Position numbers and translations under genes: made by a program. Source: a virus. From it: DNA of 26,681 nt. This document shows, piece by piece, positions 14,575 through 22,221 of the stretch. Positions within the stretch are counted from its first letter, which is position 1; each line of letters opens with the position of its first letter. Under the pieces are notes generated by a model, which was not told the DNA's origin, ran no database searches, and was given only the letters and a program-made list of their open reading frames with translations. The DNA is taken from IMG/VR virus record IMGVR_UViG_3300030098_002037, positions 1 through 26,681 of that record; one strand, 5' to 3'.

Positions 14575-14928
14575 ATGCCAAGGTTTAACAAGTTCTATCA
14601 TAAGAATAAATTTAATGCAAAAAAAACAGAGTGTCTTGGTATTATGTTTGATAGTAAGTGGGAAGCAGAGCGATATGGACAATTGGTCATGTTGCAAAGA
14701 GCGAATCAAATTCGTGATTTAGTTACGCAGGTTAAGTTTGATATTAAAATAAATAATGAAAAAATCTGCACATATATAGCTGATTTCACTTACTACGAAA
14801 AAAATAAAGACGGTGTTGAAGAATTTGTCGTTGAGGACGCAAAAGGGCTGGAAACTGCGGTTTTTCGCCTAAAAAAGAAATTGATGAAAGCTGTAAATAA
14901 CATAGAAATAAAGATTTCTAAAAAATAA
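14575..14928 (+). CDS. DUF1064 family nuclease-like protein, 117 aa
   Basis: Matches the DUF1064 pattern: K-F-N-A-K-K near 12-17, F-D-S-K-W-E-A-E (25-32), I-R-D-L then Q-V-K-F (about 47-55), Y-I-A-D-F (67-71) and V-E-D-A-K-G (86-91). E30/E32, D70 and D88-x-K90 are placed as in PD-(D/E)XK nucleases, to which this family is thought to belong. In phages it sits among replication genes, probably resolving or nicking branched DNA. No strong ribosome site (GAAAGA only). It opens the plus-strand replication block. Confidence 0.78.
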   Translation: MPRFNKFYHKNKFNAKKTECLGIMFDSKWEAERYGQLVMLQRANQIRDLVTQVKFDIKINNEKICTYIADFTYYEKNKDGVEEFVVEDAKGLETAVFRLKKKLMKAVNNIEIKISKK

Positions 14929-14931
14929 AGC

Positions 14932-14960
14932 TTGCAATTGTGAAAAACTTTTCCCATATT
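14932..14960 (+). promoter_or_regulatory. possible sigma70-like promoter before the recombination operon
   Basis: TTGCAA (14932-14937) and CATATT (14955-14960) are 17 nt apart, each 4 of 6 to consensus. A start near 14967 would give a short leader before the AAGGAG ribosome site at 14980-14985. Suggestive only. Confidence 0.3.
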
Positions 14961-14991
14961 AGTCTTAACGACATTTTTGAAGGAGTCTAGT

Positions 14992-15429
14992 ATGACTGAT
15001 ATCGAATCAGTGCGTGAGTCTGATCTGTCTGAACTTTATGTTTTAAAAAAGCAGCTTGAGCAGACAATCTCTGACGCACAACAAAAAGTTAAAATTATTA
15101 AAGATGTTCTTGAGTCCAGGTATCTTGAGAGGGCGCAAAATAAATTGCGTCAAGATGGCAAGGACTTTGGTAGCGTGGTTTTGCAGGACAAAGATTTTAG
15201 GATTAAAATCAACATTCGTAAGAAGGTTGAGTGGGATCCTGATAAAACTATCAGCGTTCTAAACAACATGGACGAAGATACTGCAAGGCACTACGCCACA
15301 GTTAAGTACACAATTCCTGAAGCTAAGTTTAACAATGCTCCGCCTGATATTAAGGCAGTGCTGAGTGAAGCTAGAACCGTGCATCTGCAAGGTATTAGCG
15401 TTGATTTGGAAAGGGAAGAAGATGCTTAA
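14992..15429 (+). CDS. conserved coiled-coil protein upstream of Sak4, 145 aa
   Basis: ATG 14992 is preceded by GAAGGAG at 6-nt spacing, so I prefer it to the TTG 15 nt upstream. Residues about 10-45 form a coiled coil (SDLSELYVLKKQLEQTISDA). Then comes a beta-rich part with GKDFGSVVLQDKDFRIKINI, a KKVEWD motif and YTIPEAKFNNAPPDIKAVL. I know similar proteins next to Sak4-type ATPases in phages, but no biochemical function. It overlaps the ATPase start by 8 nt (ATGCTTAA), so the two are translated together. It may be a partner of the annealing machinery. Confidence 0.72.
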   Translation: MTDIESVRESDLSELYVLKKQLEQTISDAQQKVKIIKDVLESRYLERAQNKLRQDGKDFGSVVLQDKDFRIKINIRKKVEWDPDKTISVLNNMDEDTARHYATVKYTIPEAKFNNAPPDIKAVLSEARTVHLQGISVDLEREEDA

Positions 15430-16282
15430 CATTATCACCGCTGAACAAAGATTGAACGAAAAGAAGGGCCATAAGCTTGTGGTTTGTGGCCCCTCTGGGG
15501 TGGGCAAGACTTCTCTTGCCCGAACCCTTGACCCCTCTAAAACATTGTTTATGGATTTAGAGGCTGGTGATGCTGCTATCGAGGGCGTGGCTATTGATGT
15601 CATTCGCCCACGAACATGGCAAGAGTGCCGTGATTTCGCAGTTTTTCTTGGTGGGCCTAATCCTTCTTTAGGTGAAGAGGCTACATACAGCCAAGCGCAT
15701 TATGAATATGTTGTGCAGACTTATGGGGATCCCTCAGAGGTTCTGTCTAAGTATGATACCTTATTCGTTGATTCGATTACGGTTGCTGGACGTTTGTGTT
15801 TTACATATTGCACTAATCAACCTGAGTGTAAATCAGATCGCACTGGTAAGTTAGATACCAGAGCGGCGTATGGTATGCAGGGTAGAGAGATGATGGGCTG
15901 GCTATCACATTTACAACATATCAGAGACAAGAATGTCGTATTCGTTGGCATTCTTGACGAAAGAGTTGATGATTACGGGCGGCAGATTTATGAACTACAG
16001 ATTGAAGGTTCAAAGACAGGCCGTGAACTACCTGGAATCGTTGATGAAGTTATTACGATGGCTGTCATGTCTAGTGACAATGGAAGCCCGTATAGAGCCT
16101 TTGTATGTCAAACGCTAAACCAGTGGGGCTATCCTGCCAAGGATAGGTCTGGTAGGCTCGATCTCCTAGAAGAACCACACCTTGGTAGACTTCTAGAAAA
16201 AATGTCAGGGGGTGAGCCACAGGCAGAACGCCCGATGAATTTTGTAAACCCAAATGAAGTAGAGGACGAAACCAATGCTTAA
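15422..16282 (+). CDS. Sak4-like RecA-family ATPase (single-strand annealing), 286 aa
   Basis: ATG 15422 starts MLNIITAEQRL. The P-loop G-P-S-G-V-G-K-T is at residues 23-30, an acidic residue at L-F-M-D-L-E near 44-49, and Walker B Y-D-T-L-F-V-D-S at 111-118 (D117). This is the AAA_24/Sak4 layout: a minimal RecA core of about 250-300 aa without RecA's DNA-pairing N-terminal domain. Phage Sak4 proteins promote annealing and recombination together with an ssDNA-binding partner, and the next gene is a candidate partner. It overlaps both neighbours by ATGCTTAA. Pro/Glu/Asn-rich tail follows residue 265. Confidence 0.85.
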   Translation: MLNIITAEQRLNEKKGHKLVVCGPSGVGKTSLARTLDPSKTLFMDLEAGDAAIEGVAIDVIRPRTWQECRDFAVFLGGPNPSLGEEATYSQAHYEYVVQTYGDPSEVLSKYDTLFVDSITVAGRLCFTYCTNQPECKSDRTGKLDTRAAYGMQGREMMGWLSHLQHIRDKNVVFVGILDERVDDYGRQIYELQIEGSKTGRELPGIVDEVITMAVMSSDNGSPYRAFVCQTLNQWGYPAKDRSGRLDLLEEPHLGRLLEKMSGGEPQAERPMNFVNPNEVEDETNA

Positions 16283-16940
16283 TCTAAATGAAATCCCTGT
16301 GTCTGAATCAAGCAATGAACCATTGCCGTTGATTCCAGATGGCACGATTGTTCGTGGTGTTTTAATGTTTGAAGGGGGTGATCATATCAAACCTGAATTT
16401 TCTCAAAGCGCCATGTTTTTTAAAAAATCCCAAAGCACTAGTGCTGAATGGATGCCTATCGCAATGACCATTGTTGGTGGTGAGTATGATAGGCGTAAAG
16501 TCTGGCAGAATATTTTTGTTCATGGCGATGCCATTGATGAGAAAACTGGTGTGTCAAAAGCAAGGCTTATTGGGCTGAATACAATTCGTGATATTGTAAA
16601 CAGCGCACATGGCTTGGATGCAAATGACATGTCACCAGAGGCGCAAGCTAAACGTCAGATCAATGGCGTTGAAGATTTACAGGGCATGGAAGTGTGTTTT
16701 GTAGTTGGTATTGAGAAGTCTAATGATCCTCAATATAAAGACAAAAACCGTGTTAAGTCTTTCTTGCCAGCAAATAGCCCATCCTTTATTCCGCCAAATG
16801 CTTCTGGCGGGGCTTTAGGAGCGCCTACAGCGGCTCCTATGCCTCCAAAGGTTCAACAGGCTATGAACGCACAGATGCCTCCTGCAACGGCTCAAAACGC
16901 CAGCAATGCGGGTATCACGCCAGCTTGGGCAAAAAGTTAA
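16275..16940 (+). CDS. probable ssDNA-binding protein (DUF669-like), 221 aa
   Basis: The N-terminal region (P-L-I-P-D-G-T-I-V-R-G-V-L, then WMPIAMTIVGGEYDRRKVWQ-N-I-F) has the beta-barrel-like pattern of DUF669 and related phage SSB substitutes. About 100-150 is helical (LNTIRDIVNSAHGL). About 140-165 returns to beta (LQGMEVCFVVGIEKS). The last 55 residues are a flexible Pro/Ala/Gln/Met-rich tail ending GITPAWAKS. Coupling to the Sak4 ATPase (8-nt overlap) agrees with a recombinase/SSB pair. The assignment to DUF669 is probable rather than certain. Confidence 0.7.
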   Translation: MLNLNEIPVSESSNEPLPLIPDGTIVRGVLMFEGGDHIKPEFSQSAMFFKKSQSTSAEWMPIAMTIVGGEYDRRKVWQNIFVHGDAIDEKTGVSKARLIGLNTIRDIVNSAHGLDANDMSPEAQAKRQINGVEDLQGMEVCFVVGIEKSNDPQYKDKNRVKSFLPANSPSFIPPNASGGALGAPTAAPMPPKVQQAMNAQMPPATAQNASNAGITPAWAKS

Positions 16941-17051
16941 CTTTAATGGCGTACTAACGGCATCTCCTTCATGAGTCGTTAGCTGGTTTGGGTGGCACCA
17001 GTGCCGTAAAGCCACCCACCTTAAATTTTACAGAAATACTGGAGGGTAAAA
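16941..17051 (+). promoter_or_regulatory. structured leader between the SSB-like and RAMP-like genes
   Basis: The 111-nt gap has two hairpins. The first pairs CTAACGGC (16954-16961) with GTCGTTAG (16975-16982), one G-U. The second pairs TGGGTGGC (16989-16996) with GCCACCCA (17011-17018), 8 bp and a 14-nt loop. No U-run follows, so a classic terminator is unlikely. CTGGAGGG at 17039-17046 is the ribosome site of the next gene. It could be an attenuator, an mRNA-processing site or a protein-binding leader. Confidence 0.55.
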
Positions 17052-17810
17052 ATGGCTGTAAAGAAAACAAATGATTCAATTAGCATTCCTGTGATCAAGC
17101 AGGGTACGATTAAATTACGTTTGATTGGTCAAACGCCAATGTACTTTAATAGTATGTCGTCTAAAGCTAAGAGAGACTTACTCGTTGGCGCAGGTCGTAA
17201 GACTGCGGCTGAGAAAAAAGAGATCAAGCATAATCCAGAGCAAGAGTTTATTGACTCTATGCACACGCAAATGAAGGGCGATACTTTACTGTGTTTCCCA
17301 GCGGCTGGTGTAAAAGGTGCAATGGCTACTGCTGCGCTTGAAACTGCTGGTGTAAATAAAACTAGCGTAAATAGACTAATCTTCTTACCGCAAACCAATA
17401 TTAATATTTGGGGTAAGCCGTACCTTAAAATTGACGTGGTTCGCTCTGCTGATATGAACCGCACACCAGATATGCGTACTCGCGCTTATCTTCCTAATTG
17501 GTGTGCGGAAGTAGAGATTAGGTTTGCTACGCCTAACTTTAGTGCGATGTCTATTTCGTCTTTGGTGCAGAACGCTGGTCAGTTAGTTGGGCTGGGTGAT
17601 TTCCGCCAAGAAAAAGGCAGAGGTTCTTTTGGTACGTTCACCATTACAGGATCTGAAGACCTTGGTGATCATAAAGACTTCTGGGATGAAATGATGGAGG
17701 AAGGTCGCGCAGTGCAAGAATTGTCGCGAGATAATCCAGAATGTGCTGATGAAGAAACAGCAGAACTGATGCAGTTCTTGCAAGAAGAGCGGTTGCGGAG
17801 GGCTGCTTAA
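17052..17810 (+). CDS. RAMP/Cas7-like phage protein, 252 aa
   Basis: Not a protein with a known phage role. Two features resemble RAMP (Cas7/Csm3-type) RNA-binding proteins. F-P-A-A-G-V-K-G-A-M at 82-91 lies where those proteins carry hPGSSLKGxhR. G-L-G-D-F-R-Q-E-K-G-R-G-S-F-G at 180-194 looks like the C-terminal RAMP glycine-rich loop. Between them are beta-rich segments and D-M-N-R-T-P-D-M-R-T-R-A-Y (134-146), a possible RNA-contact loop. The last 50 residues are acidic helices. There are no Cas1, Cas2, Cas6, Cas10 or CRISPR repeats nearby. It has a strong ribosome site (GGAGGG) and is followed at once by a GC hairpin and the pentamer array. Family assignment is inference from motifs. Confidence 0.6.
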   Translation: MAVKKTNDSISIPVIKQGTIKLRLIGQTPMYFNSMSSKAKRDLLVGAGRKTAAEKKEIKHNPEQEFIDSMHTQMKGDTLLCFPAAGVKGAMATAALETAGVNKTSVNRLIFLPQTNINIWGKPYLKIDVVRSADMNRTPDMRTRAYLPNWCAEVEIRFATPNFSAMSISSLVQNAGQLVGLGDFRQEKGRGSFGTFTITGSEDLGDHKDFWDEMMEEGRAVQELSRDNPECADEETAELMQFLQEERLRRAA

Positions 17811-17817
17811 ACTATTA

Positions 17818-17837
17818 GGCGGGGGTTTCCCCCCGCC
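17818..17837 (+). terminator. GC-rich hairpin bounding the pentamer array
   Basis: GGCGGGGG (17818-17825) pairs fully with CCCCCGCC (17830-17837) around a 4-nt loop, 8 nt after the RAMP-like stop. No U-tract follows, so it is either a factor-dependent stop, a 3'-end protector of the upstream message, or the 5' boundary element of the array. Confidence 0.6.
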
Positions 17838-17840
17838 ACG

Positions 17841-18231
17841 GGTTGCGGTTATCTATGGATAGGTCTGGCATGTCGAGGCGGTTATGGAGAGGCATGGCAC
17901 GAAAAGTCATGTTTCTTTGTGGTAAGTCTAGGCGGTTGAGTCATGTTGCGTTTCGGTTGGGTCTCGTAAGGTTCGGTTGGGTAAGTTCTGGCGGTTAAGG
18001 CTGGATAGGCAAGGCGGGGTAGGGTCCGTCACGGCACGGCTAGGCGCAGTCAGGTTGGGCTGGGCGAGGCGGTTGAGTTGAGTTTTGTTATGCCGAGATG
18101 CGGCTTGGTGGGTTTAGGCGGTTTTGGTCTGATATGGTCTGTCGCGCTAGGGTTAGGACGGGCTTGGTACGGCACGGCGGTTTCGGTATGTTCAGGTCTG
18201 GTAGGGTTACATGGGGTTGGGCATGGCGGTT
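17841..18231 (+). repeat. non-coding 5-nt periodic array with phase-resetting GGCGGTT marks
   Basis: Eight marks (starting at the GCGGTT of 17845, 17878, 17932, 17991, 18069, 18118, 18177 and 18226; seven are GGCGGTT, the first TGCGGTT) divide the block into segments of 33, 54, 59, 78, 49, 59 and 49 nt. Five segments parse exactly as GGTTNN, then whole pentamers, then GGC (9+5n). The 33- and 78-nt segments parse with a 5-nt lead (3+5n). In this register I count 64 inner pentamers: G in first place in 58, pyrimidine in third place in 58, second place mostly G or T, fourth and fifth variable. Examples are GGTCT, GGCAT, GGTTG and GTCAT. The block is G-rich against an AT-rich genome, has no coherent long ORF, and ends in the ribosome site of the next gene. 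Confidence 0.92.
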
Positions 18232-18252
18232 AATTTTTAAAAGGAGAATGTA

Positions 18253-18762
18253 ATGAGTAATTTTGCGAAAAAAACAAAACAGAGGATCATTGATGGGTAT
18301 CTGCAAGCTACTGGGCTAAACATTTACAAGCCAGATGAATTTGTTGATTGGTTAGCTGAACAGCCCGACCATGAGGCGTATGATGCTTTTTATGGCATGG
18401 ATGACAGTGTAGCGGCTCGTAACTGGCGCATCGATAAAGCGCGGCAGATGGCAAGCGGCTTACGGATTGTTGTTAAACAAGAGGATGTAACGCAGAGCGA
18501 AGTTATTTCGATTAAGGTCACTGAATATCCGGCCTACATTTCACCTGTTGCTACACGAAAGTCAGGCGGTGGTTATGAGCGGTTTGACCCTAAAGATGAA
18601 GCAGCGCAGCAAGAGTTAAGAAAACAGGCTGGAGTTTATTTAGCGGGATGGCTTGGTCGTTTTAGGGGCGCGGCTGAAAATGCTGGTTTAGACTTAACGT
18701 CAGTTGAATATATTGTTAGGGTTTTAAGAGACGATAAAGATGAGAAGCTAGAGGCTGGATAA
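18253..18762 (+). CDS. phage protein of unknown function downstream of the array, 169 aa
   Basis: AAAAGGAG at 18239-18246 gives a strong ribosome site. The N-terminus is basic and helical (MSNFAKKTKQRIIDGYLQAT), followed by Y-K-P-D-E-F-V-D-W-L and D-H-E-A-Y-D-A-F-Y-G-M-D-D-x-x-A-A-R-N-W-R, a pattern I recognise from prophages of alphaproteobacteria without an assigned function. The middle has a beta strand pair (VISIKVTEYPAYISPVATRK) and a glycine turn; the C-terminal third is helical (LAGWLGRFRGAAENAGLDL). The whole pentamer array lies in its 5' leader if it is co-transcribed with the RAMP-like gene, so its translation could be controlled by the array. DNA or RNA binding is possible from the basic N-terminus but not shown. 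Confidence 0.72.
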   Translation: MSNFAKKTKQRIIDGYLQATGLNIYKPDEFVDWLAEQPDHEAYDAFYGMDDSVAARNWRIDKARQMASGLRIVVKQEDVTQSEVISIKVTEYPAYISPVATRKSGGGYERFDPKDEAAQQELRKQAGVYLAGWLGRFRGAAENAGLDLTSVEYIVRVLRDDKDEKLEAG

Positions 18763-18763
18763 A

Positions 18764-19042
18764 ATGCGCGGTGAAATAAACGTAGTTATGTTTTTTGCTG
18801 ATAAAGAGGTGAAGAACATAAAAGCTTTTATCAAATTAAATGAAAACTTTGGTGATGAAGATATAATAGATGAAATGTCTAATTTTATTGATTCTGTTAT
18901 TAAACAGCACAGAGATAAATTTAGGATGGGCATAGCTACTCTAATGGTAGGTGGAGATGAACTTTTCCAGTTATCTTTCTCTAATAAACGAGGCAGAAGT
19001 TTATGGAACCTAACGATACCAGACGAAACAACAGTGCATTAA
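18764..19042 (+). CDS. unknown small protein, 92 aa
   Basis: Begins 1 nt after the previous stop (TAAAATG). A second in-frame ATG at 18788 is possible. The sequence alternates short strands and helices: INVVMFFADKEVKNIKAFIK, DIIDEMSNFIDSVIKQH, FRMGIATLMVGGDELFQLSF. It is acidic with no cysteine and no membrane segment. I do not recognise a family. It overlaps the next gene by 40 nt in another frame. The compact globular look and coupling to real neighbours support coding. Confidence 0.6.
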   Translation: MRGEINVVMFFADKEVKNIKAFIKLNENFGDEDIIDEMSNFIDSVIKQHRDKFRMGIATLMVGGDELFQLSFSNKRGRSLWNLTIPDETTVH

Positions 19043-19245
19043 AAGAAGTTGCAAATTGTTTTGAGAATATAGGCTGGGAAAAAAGGTTATGTGATTTACA
19101 GGAGCGAGAAGTTCTTGGGCTTATAGCCATCATACAAAAAGCGAGGGATCTAACAGATGACTATACAGAACAGGGCGTTCTTGAATTTGAACAGAGTGTC
19201 ACCCGTGTTGACGAACCCTTCTTTGACGACCCAATTCCATTCTGA
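19003..19245 (+). CDS. small replication-region protein with SSB-like acidic C-terminal tip, 80 aa
   Basis: Overlaps the previous gene by 40 nt and the next by 89 nt. The central helix R-L-C-D-L-Q-E-R-E-V-L-G-L-I-A-I-I-Q (about 27-44) is a pattern I know from alphaproteobacterial phages. The protein ends E-P-F-F-D-D-P-I-P-F. Bacterial SSB proteins end with D-D-D-I-P-F, the tip that binds PriA, RecO, ExoI and other partners, so the tail could mimic it and recruit host repair or replication enzymes. It has no OB-fold, so it is not itself an SSB. The mimicry is inference. Confidence 0.65.
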   Translation: MEPNDTRRNNSALKEVANCFENIGWEKRLCDLQEREVLGLIAIIQKARDLTDDYTEQGVLEFEQSVTRVDEPFFDDPIPF

Positions 19246-19948
19246 TGCCATCGAACTTATTTCCTACGAAATAGACAGAGCCATCTGCGAAAAAAACGAC
19301 ACTCAACCACAGAGGACGTATTTAGGTGGCTCTTCTTTAGGCAGCCCGTGTTCACGACAAGTTCAGTATAGATATATGCAAGTTAAACCAGATGAAGACA
19401 AAATGTTTTCAGCAAGAACTTTGCGTATTTTTGATATGGGTCACTTCATTGAGGACTTACTGGCTAAGTATATTAAAGAAGCAGGTTTTGATTTAAAGAC
19501 ACATGACTCTAATGGCAAACAGTTCGGGTTCTCTGTAGCAAATGAACAGATAAGGGGTCACATTGACGGCGTTATATGCTCTGGCCCTGTTACCATGTCA
19601 TACCCAATGCTATGGGAGTGTAAGTCCGCTAACAGCAGGAAGTTTAATGAATTTGTTCGCAAGGGAGTTGCTGTTGCGAATCCTACTTATGCGGGGCAAA
19701 TAGCACTGTATCAGGCATATATGGATTTATATGAAAACCCAGCCTTGTTTACTGTTTTAAACAAAGATACAAGTGAGATTTACTACGAGCTTGTTCCCTT
19801 TGACAGAGAGCTTGCCCAGAAGATTAGCGATAAAGGTGTAGAGATTTTAAAGGCAACAAAAGCAAATGAGATGTTGCCGCGTGTGGCGGTTAATTCAGAT
19901 TATTTTACTTGCAAATATTGTGAGTTTCGCCAGACTTGTTGGTCATAG
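19157..19948 (+). CDS. Cas4-like PD-(D/E)XK nuclease with Fe-S cluster cysteines, 263 aa
   Basis: Residues G-H-I-D137-G-V-I, E154-C-K156 and Q181-x-x-x-Y185 are motifs II, III and IV of RecB/Cas4 nucleases. Cysteines C65 (G-S-P-C-S-R-Q) and C252, C255, C261 (C-K-Y-C-x5-C-W) match the four ligands of the Cas4/AddB 4Fe-4S cluster. Such phage enzymes act as 5'-3' exonucleases that make ssDNA for annealing proteins like Sak4. No Cas1 or CRISPR is present, so it is a recombination nuclease, not an adaptation one. The start is uncertain: ATG 19157 has GAGGGA upstream, but GTG 19196 or 19205 would shorten the overlap. Confidence 0.85.
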   Translation: MTIQNRAFLNLNRVSPVLTNPSLTTQFHSDAIELISYEIDRAICEKNDTQPQRTYLGGSSLGSPCSRQVQYRYMQVKPDEDKMFSARTLRIFDMGHFIEDLLAKYIKEAGFDLKTHDSNGKQFGFSVANEQIRGHIDGVICSGPVTMSYPMLWECKSANSRKFNEFVRKGVAVANPTYAGQIALYQAYMDLYENPALFTVLNKDTSEIYYELVPFDRELAQKISDKGVEILKATKANEMLPRVAVNSDYFTCKYCEFRQTCWS

Positions 19949-20046: not shown

Positions 20047-22221
20047 ATGAGTGTTTTACGTTTTGACAATACTAAATATGGTAGCGCCCATGAATTAGTT
20101 CAGAAGATTAGCGATGAGGTTCCGCGTTCTGTTCAGATAAGCATTTTGCAGGAAACTTATCCTAACGGTAGGATTCGGGGTCATGATTTCTTTATCGGGT
20201 CACTGGCGGGTGAAGCTGGTGAAAGTTTAAAGATAGATATCAACCCCAGTAGTCCACATTTCATGCGTGGGCAGGACTTTAATGGCGGCGAGGGAATCGG
20301 CGGAATCGTTAAGATTTTGATGGAGGCCCGTGGTATGCGGCTGCCTGAAATCAAAGAAATGTTCGGGTCTTATTTATCAGATGATGTCAGACCAGTTGTT
20401 AATGAACCATCTTGGCGTATGCCTAACGGGGGCATTGATTTAAATAGTTTGCCTGTTCAAGCAGAAGATCAAAAAGAAAAAGTTCGGATTGATGCTGCAA
20501 CAGAACATAACGGTCAGTGGGACTATATCAGTCGGGACGGTGAGGTATTAGTTACTGTCCGCCGTTATGATATCGGTGGCAAGAAAGAGTTTCGCCCGTG
20601 GATTCCAGGCGTTAACTATCCAAAAGCGCCTGATGTTCGGCCTCTGTATAATATCCCGAACATTTTAGACCAGCAGCGGGTTGTCTGGGTAGAAGGCGAG
20701 AAGTGCGCCCAAGCTTTAATTGATGCTGGTATTACAGCTACATGCACACTGGGAGGTGCTGGTGCTTTAACCAGAAAGAACGCAGATAAGTTTGATTTCA
20801 CACCTCTTCGGGGCAAAGAATTAATTATATGGCCTGATAACGATGACGCGGGTAGAAGGCTTGCTGAAATTGTTCGGGAAGTGGCGCTCGATGCTGATGC
20901 TGACAGCGTTACTATACTACATCCGCCTGCTGGCAAGCCGCCCAAATGGGATGCTGCTGATGCGATAGCAGAGGGTTTGGACATAGATGAGTTTATCAAC
21001 AACGGTGTTGGGCATACGCACAAAGCTATTAATCTTCTTAACGATAGCCTTCTTATATCTAGGTTTACAGGTAGTGCGCCTGTTCAAAACTTCTTAATTG
21101 ACGGGACTTTTCCGTTGGGTGTGCCAATCATATTCGCTGCCGCAGGTGACGCAGGTAAGGGCATGATGACCCTTGATCTATCTATGAAGGTGGCATCTGG
21201 AAAGCCGTTGCAGAACGCTTTCGGGGGTACAGTAAAAGAGTTCGGGGATGTGGTTATCTTCACTGCTGAAGATGATGAGGCGGAGATGCACAGACGTATT
21301 GAGAGATTGGATGAAGCAGGCGAGAGGTTTGATTACCCGAACAAATTACATGTTGTGCCGCTGCCAAATGTCGGTGGCGTGTTTCCTATCTTACGCGATA
21401 ACATGGGTGATTACTCAGAAACAGATGAGTTTAAAAAGATTTACGAACAAATTTTACAGCTTAGTAATTTAAAGCTTATTGTATTTGACCCGTTGGCATC
21501 TTTCGTTCATGCGGATGTAAATGCTGATCCTGCCGCAGGTGCAGCTTTAACTGGCTTATTGTCTAGGGTGGCAACAGAAACAGGTTCATCTGTTATTGTG
21601 TGTCATCATATGACCAAGGTGCAGGGTGATAAGGTTATATCAAAGCCTGAAGAGGCTCGTAATTTGATTCGGGGTACGTCAGCTTTAGTTGATGGTGTTC
21701 GTTCTGCTTTTGCGCTATGGCAAGTAGATGAAAAGACTTCAGTTGGTCGATGCAACGACTTAGGGGTTACCTATGAGCGTAATCGGTGTTTTGATGGTGC
21801 TGTTGTTAAATCTAATGGCCCTGCCAGCAGGCACATAAGACATTTTGTTCGGGATATGCTCACAGGTCTACTTGAGGACAGGACCGAACAAATTAGAAAC
21901 TTGGGCCAAAGCAATCAGGCACACTTACGCAAAGATGCGATGTTTAACTGGATTGCTGACTGTGAACGTAACGGTCGGGCTTTGTGTCAGCAGGGTGGAG
22001 CAGATGGCATAATAAACAGGCTCACCGACCCAGAAACACCAGAGATATTAAGAGGTCTAGGTCAATCGACCATAGACAGAATTGTTCGGGATTTAATCAA
22101 CGAGCGGCGTGTTGAGAAGTATTCGTTCAGCACGGCTGGTGGTCGCAAGTGGCTTGGAACTACAAACGGCGTGATGAGTCGGGGTGAATATGAAGCGGTT
22201 ACAGCGAGGGATAATGTATAA
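20047..22221 (+). CDS. TOPRIM primase / RepA-like helicase fusion, 724 aa
   Basis: Probable replicative primase-helicase. An N-terminal module (about 1-110) occupies the place of a zinc-binding primase domain but lacks CHC-type cysteines. TOPRIM follows: V-W-V-E216-G-E-K and I-I-W-P-D264-N-D266-D-A-G-R-R. The RecA-like helicase has P-loop G367-D-A-G-K371-G, Walker B L-I-V-F-D481-P and V-C-H-H (about 518-521). The usual Ser/Thr after the P-loop Lys is Gly, as I recall for other RepA-like phage proteins. The C-terminal 130 residues may be a winged-helix domain. It faces no strong ribosome site. The next gene starts directly after its stop. Confidence 0.85.
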   Translation: MSVLRFDNTKYGSAHELVQKISDEVPRSVQISILQETYPNGRIRGHDFFIGSLAGEAGESLKIDINPSSPHFMRGQDFNGGEGIGGIVKILMEARGMRLPEIKEMFGSYLSDDVRPVVNEPSWRMPNGGIDLNSLPVQAEDQKEKVRIDAATEHNGQWDYISRDGEVLVTVRRYDIGGKKEFRPWIPGVNYPKAPDVRPLYNIPNILDQQRVVWVEGEKCAQALIDAGITATCTLGGAGALTRKNADKFDFTPLRGKELIIWPDNDDAGRRLAEIVREVALDADADSVTILHPPAGKPPKWDAADAIAEGLDIDEFINNGVGHTHKAINLLNDSLLISRFTGSAPVQNFLIDGTFPLGVPIIFAAAGDAGKGMMTLDLSMKVASGKPLQNAFGGTVKEFGDVVIFTAEDDEAEMHRRIERLDEAGERFDYPNKLHVVPLPNVGGVFPILRDNMGDYSETDEFKKIYEQILQLSNLKLIVFDPLASFVHADVNADPAAGAALTGLLSRVATETGSSVIVCHHMTKVQGDKVISKPEEARNLIRGTSALVDGVRSAFALWQVDEKTSVGRCNDLGVTYERNRCFDGAVVKSNGPASRHIRHFVRDMLTGLLEDRTEQIRNLGQSNQAHLRKDAMFNWIADCERNGRALCQQGGADGIINRLTDPETPEILRGLGQSTIDRIVRDLINERRVEKYSFSTAGGRKWLGTTNGVMSRGEYEAVTARDNV

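Follow-up and report, generated by a model that had tools for sequence, protein, structure and literature searches.

VIPR systems, first described in April 2026, couple a RAMP protein to vrRNAs of 9–16 pentamers in which a fixed GGY is followed by a variable dinucleotide (NN). Binding to double-stranded DNA is through the NN pairs and skips one base, in most cases that at the codon wobble position, and the genes repressed belong to competing elements (PMC13142463). The experimental work used a phage of Escherichia and a prophage system of Pseudomonas, and seven types are distinguished, some of them with arrays (PMC13142463). In the 26.7 kb stretch of viral DNA analysed here (IMGVR_UViG_3300030098_002037, hereafter the window), a vrRNA-type array consisting of a leader and six modules lies at 17841–18231 on the + strand, between the gene of a 252-amino-acid (aa) RAMP-like protein and that of a 169-aa protein. 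The first-pass annotation of this block knew of no named element with such a layout; the VIPR vrRNAs match it (PMC13142463), and the array is a marine addition to this already described system. We are highly confident that this block represents a VIPR vrRNA array, with a RAMP-type Vipr protein and skip-one guides against genes of rival phages, the action of the ribonucleoprotein being taken over from the preprint. Family membership, the array architecture, the skip of one nucleotide (nt) and predicted targets in the genes of other phages and in tRNA-Arg are established here on sequence evidence.

The 5-nt periodicity and the GGCGGTT punctuation that had been claimed for the block proved to be real, both in the autocorrelation of G and in the parse. 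The autocorrelation reached z=7.2 at lag 5 over 1000 dinucleotide shuffles, z=7.2 at lag 10 and z=5.8 at lag 15 against such shuffles, and GGCGGTT is present 7 times in the block and 3 times elsewhere in the 26.7 kb. The global period-5 Fourier peak of the array stayed within the dinucleotide shuffles and was not significant, since every mark resets the phase. The array parses into the leader M0 (17841–17879, + strand; GGTTGC, six pentamers and GGC, with the NN series GC TA AT TA CT AT GA), which is conserved in close relatives, and six modules built as GGTTNN (GKYNN)n GGC. After the last mark, GGCGGTT (18225–18231, + strand), comes the ribosome-binding site of the downstream gene. Mark-to-mark distances of 54, 59, 78, 49, 59 and 49 nt bear out the proposed segment lengths of 9+5n or 3+5n. 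The earlier hand counts, 58 of 64 pentamers for G in the first place and likewise for a pyrimidine in the third, were only partly reproduced by a naive parse (54/58 for G, only 49/58 for the pyrimidine), the counts being lower owing to a one-base slip in the 78-nt module. Folded alone, M1 (17880–17933) and M6 (18179–18227) form long hairpins (z=-4.1 and -3.3, respectively), and the other modules do not. Comparison of the block with Rfam, a tRNA search and nucleotide BLAST against phages found nothing, and promoter and terminator scans were uninformative.

The description of the unit as a fixed trinucleotide plus a variable dinucleotide was right, and the idea of a polymer that binds nucleic acid with a 5-nt step fits a VIPR ribonucleoprotein whose protein is the RAMP-like gene product, but places four and five are not free, as had been supposed. 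Between homologous modules, substitutions per column amount to 0.13 and 0.18 at places 4 and 5, similar to the 0.21 and 0.17 at places 2 and 3. Moreover, the NN frequencies track codon positions 1–2 of the window genes (r=0.78); the remaining codon frames give 0.25 or less, and dinucleotides of the whole genome 0.55.

The NN series of each window module, with one wildcard between pairs, was searched for exact matches in IMG/VR viral contigs; all target searches covered viral sequence collections only. Five of the six modules (M1–M4 and M6, all on the + strand, as is M5) gave exact skip-1 matches, which were concentrated in one gene each. All 35 exact matches of M1 (17880–17933) fall in the same peptide of ribonucleotide reductase, MDMTNISVNY, in the sense frame and with the skip at the wobble base. 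M2 (17934–17992; 22 specified bases) is predicted to address the catalytic motif RFHDLRHEAIS of tyrosine integrases, with 8/8 exact matches in antisense frame 0, and M3 (17993–18070; 78 nt, 26 specified bases) a T7-gp3-like endonuclease I at YKGSPTTYAQWC[ED], with 6/6 exact matches in sense frame 0. The 5n+3 length of M3 comes from one 4-nt unit, as if a single base read one codon. The terminase large subunit is probably also among the decoded targets, as 86 of the 90 exact matches of M4 (18071–18119) lie in sense frame 0, 79 of them in the same peptide of the nuclease motif, DDFIDALGY. Pfam confirmed the four target genes (PF02867 for M1, PF00589 for M2, PF05367 for M3 and PF17289 for M4). 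M6 (18179–18227) has at least 121 exact matches in mixed reading frames, antisense to the 5' end and D-arm of tRNA-Arg genes, and ARAGORN called tRNA-Arg at the match position in 16/16 loci checked. M6 is the last module in several arrays, the tRNA-Arg anticodons are TCT, CCT and CCG, and a variant of M6 in one relative (L017) keeps the D-arm part and has a changed acceptor part. No target match was found for M5 (18120–18178; 20 specified bases), whose zero exact matches in IMG/VR indicate that patterns of this length do not readily match by chance; at three or fewer mismatches, it likewise had none in 20 rival records or other fetched loci.

The same code was recovered with a second set of 224 modules unlike those of the window, compared with 2.64 Mb of other viral DNA. 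A skip of 1 gave 7 exact and 7 one-mismatch matches, skips of 0, 2 and 3 gave no exact and 1–2 one-mismatch matches, and shuffling the NN order left neither exact nor one-mismatch matches. The skip was at the wobble position in 18/18 of the matches listed, with the caveat that 2 of the 7 exact skip-1 matches lie in low-complexity collagen-like repeats. Genes matched by this set include a gp2.5-like single-stranded DNA-binding protein, endonuclease I, DNA polymerase A, a T7-type primase-helicase and ribonucleotide reductase. As judged from these matches, successive NN pairs are matched to DNA with 1 nt left out between them, at the wobble base when the target is coding. A 3-base skip, corresponding to the full 5-nt spacing, had been tried first and nothing was found; the sole perfect long 3-skip match was an array itself. 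Skips of 0–3 against an early set of loci, mostly VIPR phages themselves, gave no convincing targets.

The 252-aa protein upstream of the array (17052–17810, + strand) matches phrog_4652 over nearly its full length, and the Vipr protein of Escherichia phage SUSP1 falls in the same PHROG (read from KT454805; 1.4e-96). In a profile search with its family, a single PDB sequence fell below E<0.01, 36pp, 'SUSP1 Vipr protein' (E=0.0028), and hhalign of the family with SUSP1 Vipr gave a probability of 91.3, so that PHROG assignment, PDB profile and hhalign agree on a RAMP homologue of the SUSP1 family, as expected for VIPR. The top structural matches of a low-confidence AlphaFold2 model were Csm chains, followed by other RAMP proteins. 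In the Gordonia phages Ecliptus and UmaThurman, a GGYNN run of 10–11 pentamers stands right after the phrog_4652 gene (loci L484:4771 and L485:4617), and that of Ecliptus falls in an unannotated gap.

A search of IMG/VR with the 252-aa protein retrieved at least 80 related loci, and the array directly follows the gene in 63 of the 64 examined with downstream sequence, the exception being a contig end; the layout is thus shared at the same locus by related phages, which the first-pass annotation had made a condition of its reading. Among 386 distinct mark-to-mark segments of the relatives, 316 have lengths of 5n+4, 35 (~9%) of 5n+3 and 31 of 5n, the last probably representing in-phase chance marks. 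Across 304 modules, the consensus reads G(.94) G/T(.65/.26) T/C(.64/.30) N N with little dependence between places (G/T.91 at place 2, C/T.94 at place 3), and the modules comprise on average 8.8 inner pentamers plus the first NN. The 3'-most pentamer is often GGCAA or GGCGA and some target mismatches are located there, so that the last pentamer may, together with GGC|GGTY, be part of a constant handle. The relatives contain 3–16 segments per array, and 52 distinct arrays comprise 172 module families, 84 of which occur in two or more arrays. Shared modules vary in ordinal position and mostly keep their pairwise order (251 concordant, 9 discordant pairs). Free shuffling of modules between phages was accordingly rejected, and the nearly constant order points to gain, loss and replacement of modules in place between related phages.

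M1 targets lie on contigs whose replication genes are of the podovirus type and resemble those of pelagiphages and roseophages, and the isolated Roseobacter phages CRP-3 and CRP-212 have the peptide LDMTNISVNY, a 19/20 match to M1. The window itself contains no good match to its own guides (for M1, 14/20 at best). Predicted targets in competing mobile elements comprise phage ribonucleotide reductase, endonuclease I, polymerase, primase-helicase, terminase and integrase. As a weak hint to hosts, binning placed the contig of one relative in Rhodobacteraceae and that of another in Nealsonbacteria.

Several other explanations were weighed. The guides could act on the host instead of rival phages, for example by repressing host tRNA, integrase or reductase genes; tRNA-Arg, matched by M6, is a host gene too, and integrases and reductases occur in bacteria as well. 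This is unlikely, since in the viral collections searched many other modules have phage-specific targets (endonuclease I, gp2.5, T7-type primase-helicase, phage DNA polymerase and terminase). Far less credible is a structural or decoy RNA to which a protein binds at the GKY of every 5 nt while the NN carry no target information. The strong fixation of GKY and the strong hairpins of M1 and M6 would suit such an RNA, but the NN are substituted no more frequently than K and Y, and their in-frame matches in single conserved genes, far beyond those of shuffled controls, contradict it. We give practically no credence to a simple-sequence repeat or selfish DNA expanded by replication slippage, to which the low C and A content and the pentamer period might point, as the modules are not copies of one another, with 172 families in 52 arrays, and the adjoining protein family and the decoded targets refute it.

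Against the assignment to VIPR itself stand the following points. Its source is a preprint (bioRxiv 2026.04.26.720920), the hhalign alignment to SUSP1 Vipr spans the C-terminal part only, and the AlphaFold2 model of the 252-aa protein is poor (predicted local distance difference test score of 48). With T at place 2 in 26% of pentamers, the consensus is less strict than GGY. Among the guides, the leader M0 (14 specified bases only) had no convincing target in the fetched loci, M5 matched nothing, the weaker target of M4 was assigned with 18 specified bases and mostly in one phage group, and that of M6 likewise rests on 18 specified bases. Finally, no 3' tail of the SUSP1 kind is visible between modules, where only GGC|GGTY is found; in the preprint, a tail is reported for the characterised vrRNAs, so it may not define all seven types (PMC13142463).

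Under the VIPR reading, the array would be transcribed and would provide one guide per module between GGCGGTY marks. Each pentamer of this RNA would be covered by one Vipr subunit, which would hold the fixed G-K-Y and display N-N, and the NN pairs of a module would then read double-stranded DNA as NN-x-NN-x. The ribonucleoprotein, as in the preprint (PMC13142463), would bind DNA and repress or block the targeted genes, and the phage would thereby suppress rivals within the same cell. Because the wobble base is skipped, a single guide can fit numerous diverged relatives of its target gene, and this wide match fits guides sitting on conserved motifs. We moderately favour the further proposal that the locus represents a distinct marine variant of VIPR, in which tail-less head-to-tail arrays, separated only by GGCGGTY, hold up to ~16 exchangeable guides on conserved catalytic motifs and form a broad-spectrum, escape-resistant anti-phage library. 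If so, a single wobble-skipping guide would cover many diverged rivals at once.

Between the vipr stop codon and the array, a G+C-rich hairpin of 8 bp (17818–17837, + strand) folds GGCGGGGG/CCCCCGCC. Its folding z-score is not significant, the terminator scan called none on the + strand at this position, and with no T-run it is not a typical terminator. Relatives have a strong hairpin at the same place just 3' of the vipr stop, with quite different stem sequences (in one group GGGGCAACGCGC..GCGCGTTGC), then a leader, for example CGGGTTGCGG or CACGG, and again no T-run; the hairpin of the window is possibly a processing or boundary element. The 169-aa protein downstream (18253–18762, + strand) is a candidate accessory protein (vap) that follows the array in relatives as well. 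It belongs to phrog_15946, versus phrog_5926 for the neighbour protein of SUSP1, and has homologues in 81 sequences, and no useful PDB match was obtained by sequence or fold. The locus lies within a recombination gene cluster (14575–19948) with a DUF1064 resolvase, a Sak4-like annealing protein and a Cas4-domain exonuclease. The primase-helicase encoded at 20047–22221 is closest to that of Wolbachia phage WO, with 39% identity over 98% of its length.

The family adds dozens of marine phages and some 170 guide families to VIPR, and lends independent support, from sequence alone, to the skip-one code. Natural guides appear to be directed against core phage genes at conserved motifs, and the decoded targets hint at which phages are competitors in the ocean. 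As the isolates CRP-3 and CRP-212 carry near-perfect targets, the prediction is open to laboratory testing.

Compared with class 1 CRISPR effectors (Csm3/Cas7), the locus has in common a RAMP-type protein, RNA-guided targeting and an array of exchangeable guides. It differs from CRISPR in having no identical repeats with contiguous spacers, in its noncontiguous pairing and in a 7-nt mark as the sole constant part. No adaptation genes were recognised in the window, and PADLOC on seven neighbouring proteins gave no significant Cas protein, only weak matches such as Cas4 in the nearby exonuclease (E=7e-4), which sits among phage recombination genes. The closest known system is the type II VIPR of Escherichia phage SUSP1 (PDB 36pp, PMC13142463), with which the locus shares a phage-borne phrog_4652 RAMP protein, pentamers of a fixed trinucleotide and a variable NN, the 1-nt skip at the wobble base and predicted targets in other mobile elements. 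Unlike in SUSP1, the guides stand head to tail with GGCGGTY marks, 3–16 segments per array and no recognisable SUSP1-type tail, pentamers of the GTY type are common, and the neighbour gene encodes a protein of 169 aa instead of 146 aa. Whereas the targets of SUSP1 are satellites, those predicted here include core replication genes of marine podoviruses. The arrangement of several guides in one intergenic block resembles the staggered or overlapping VIPR arrays that the text of the preprint mentions with reference to its fig. S18 (PMC13142463).
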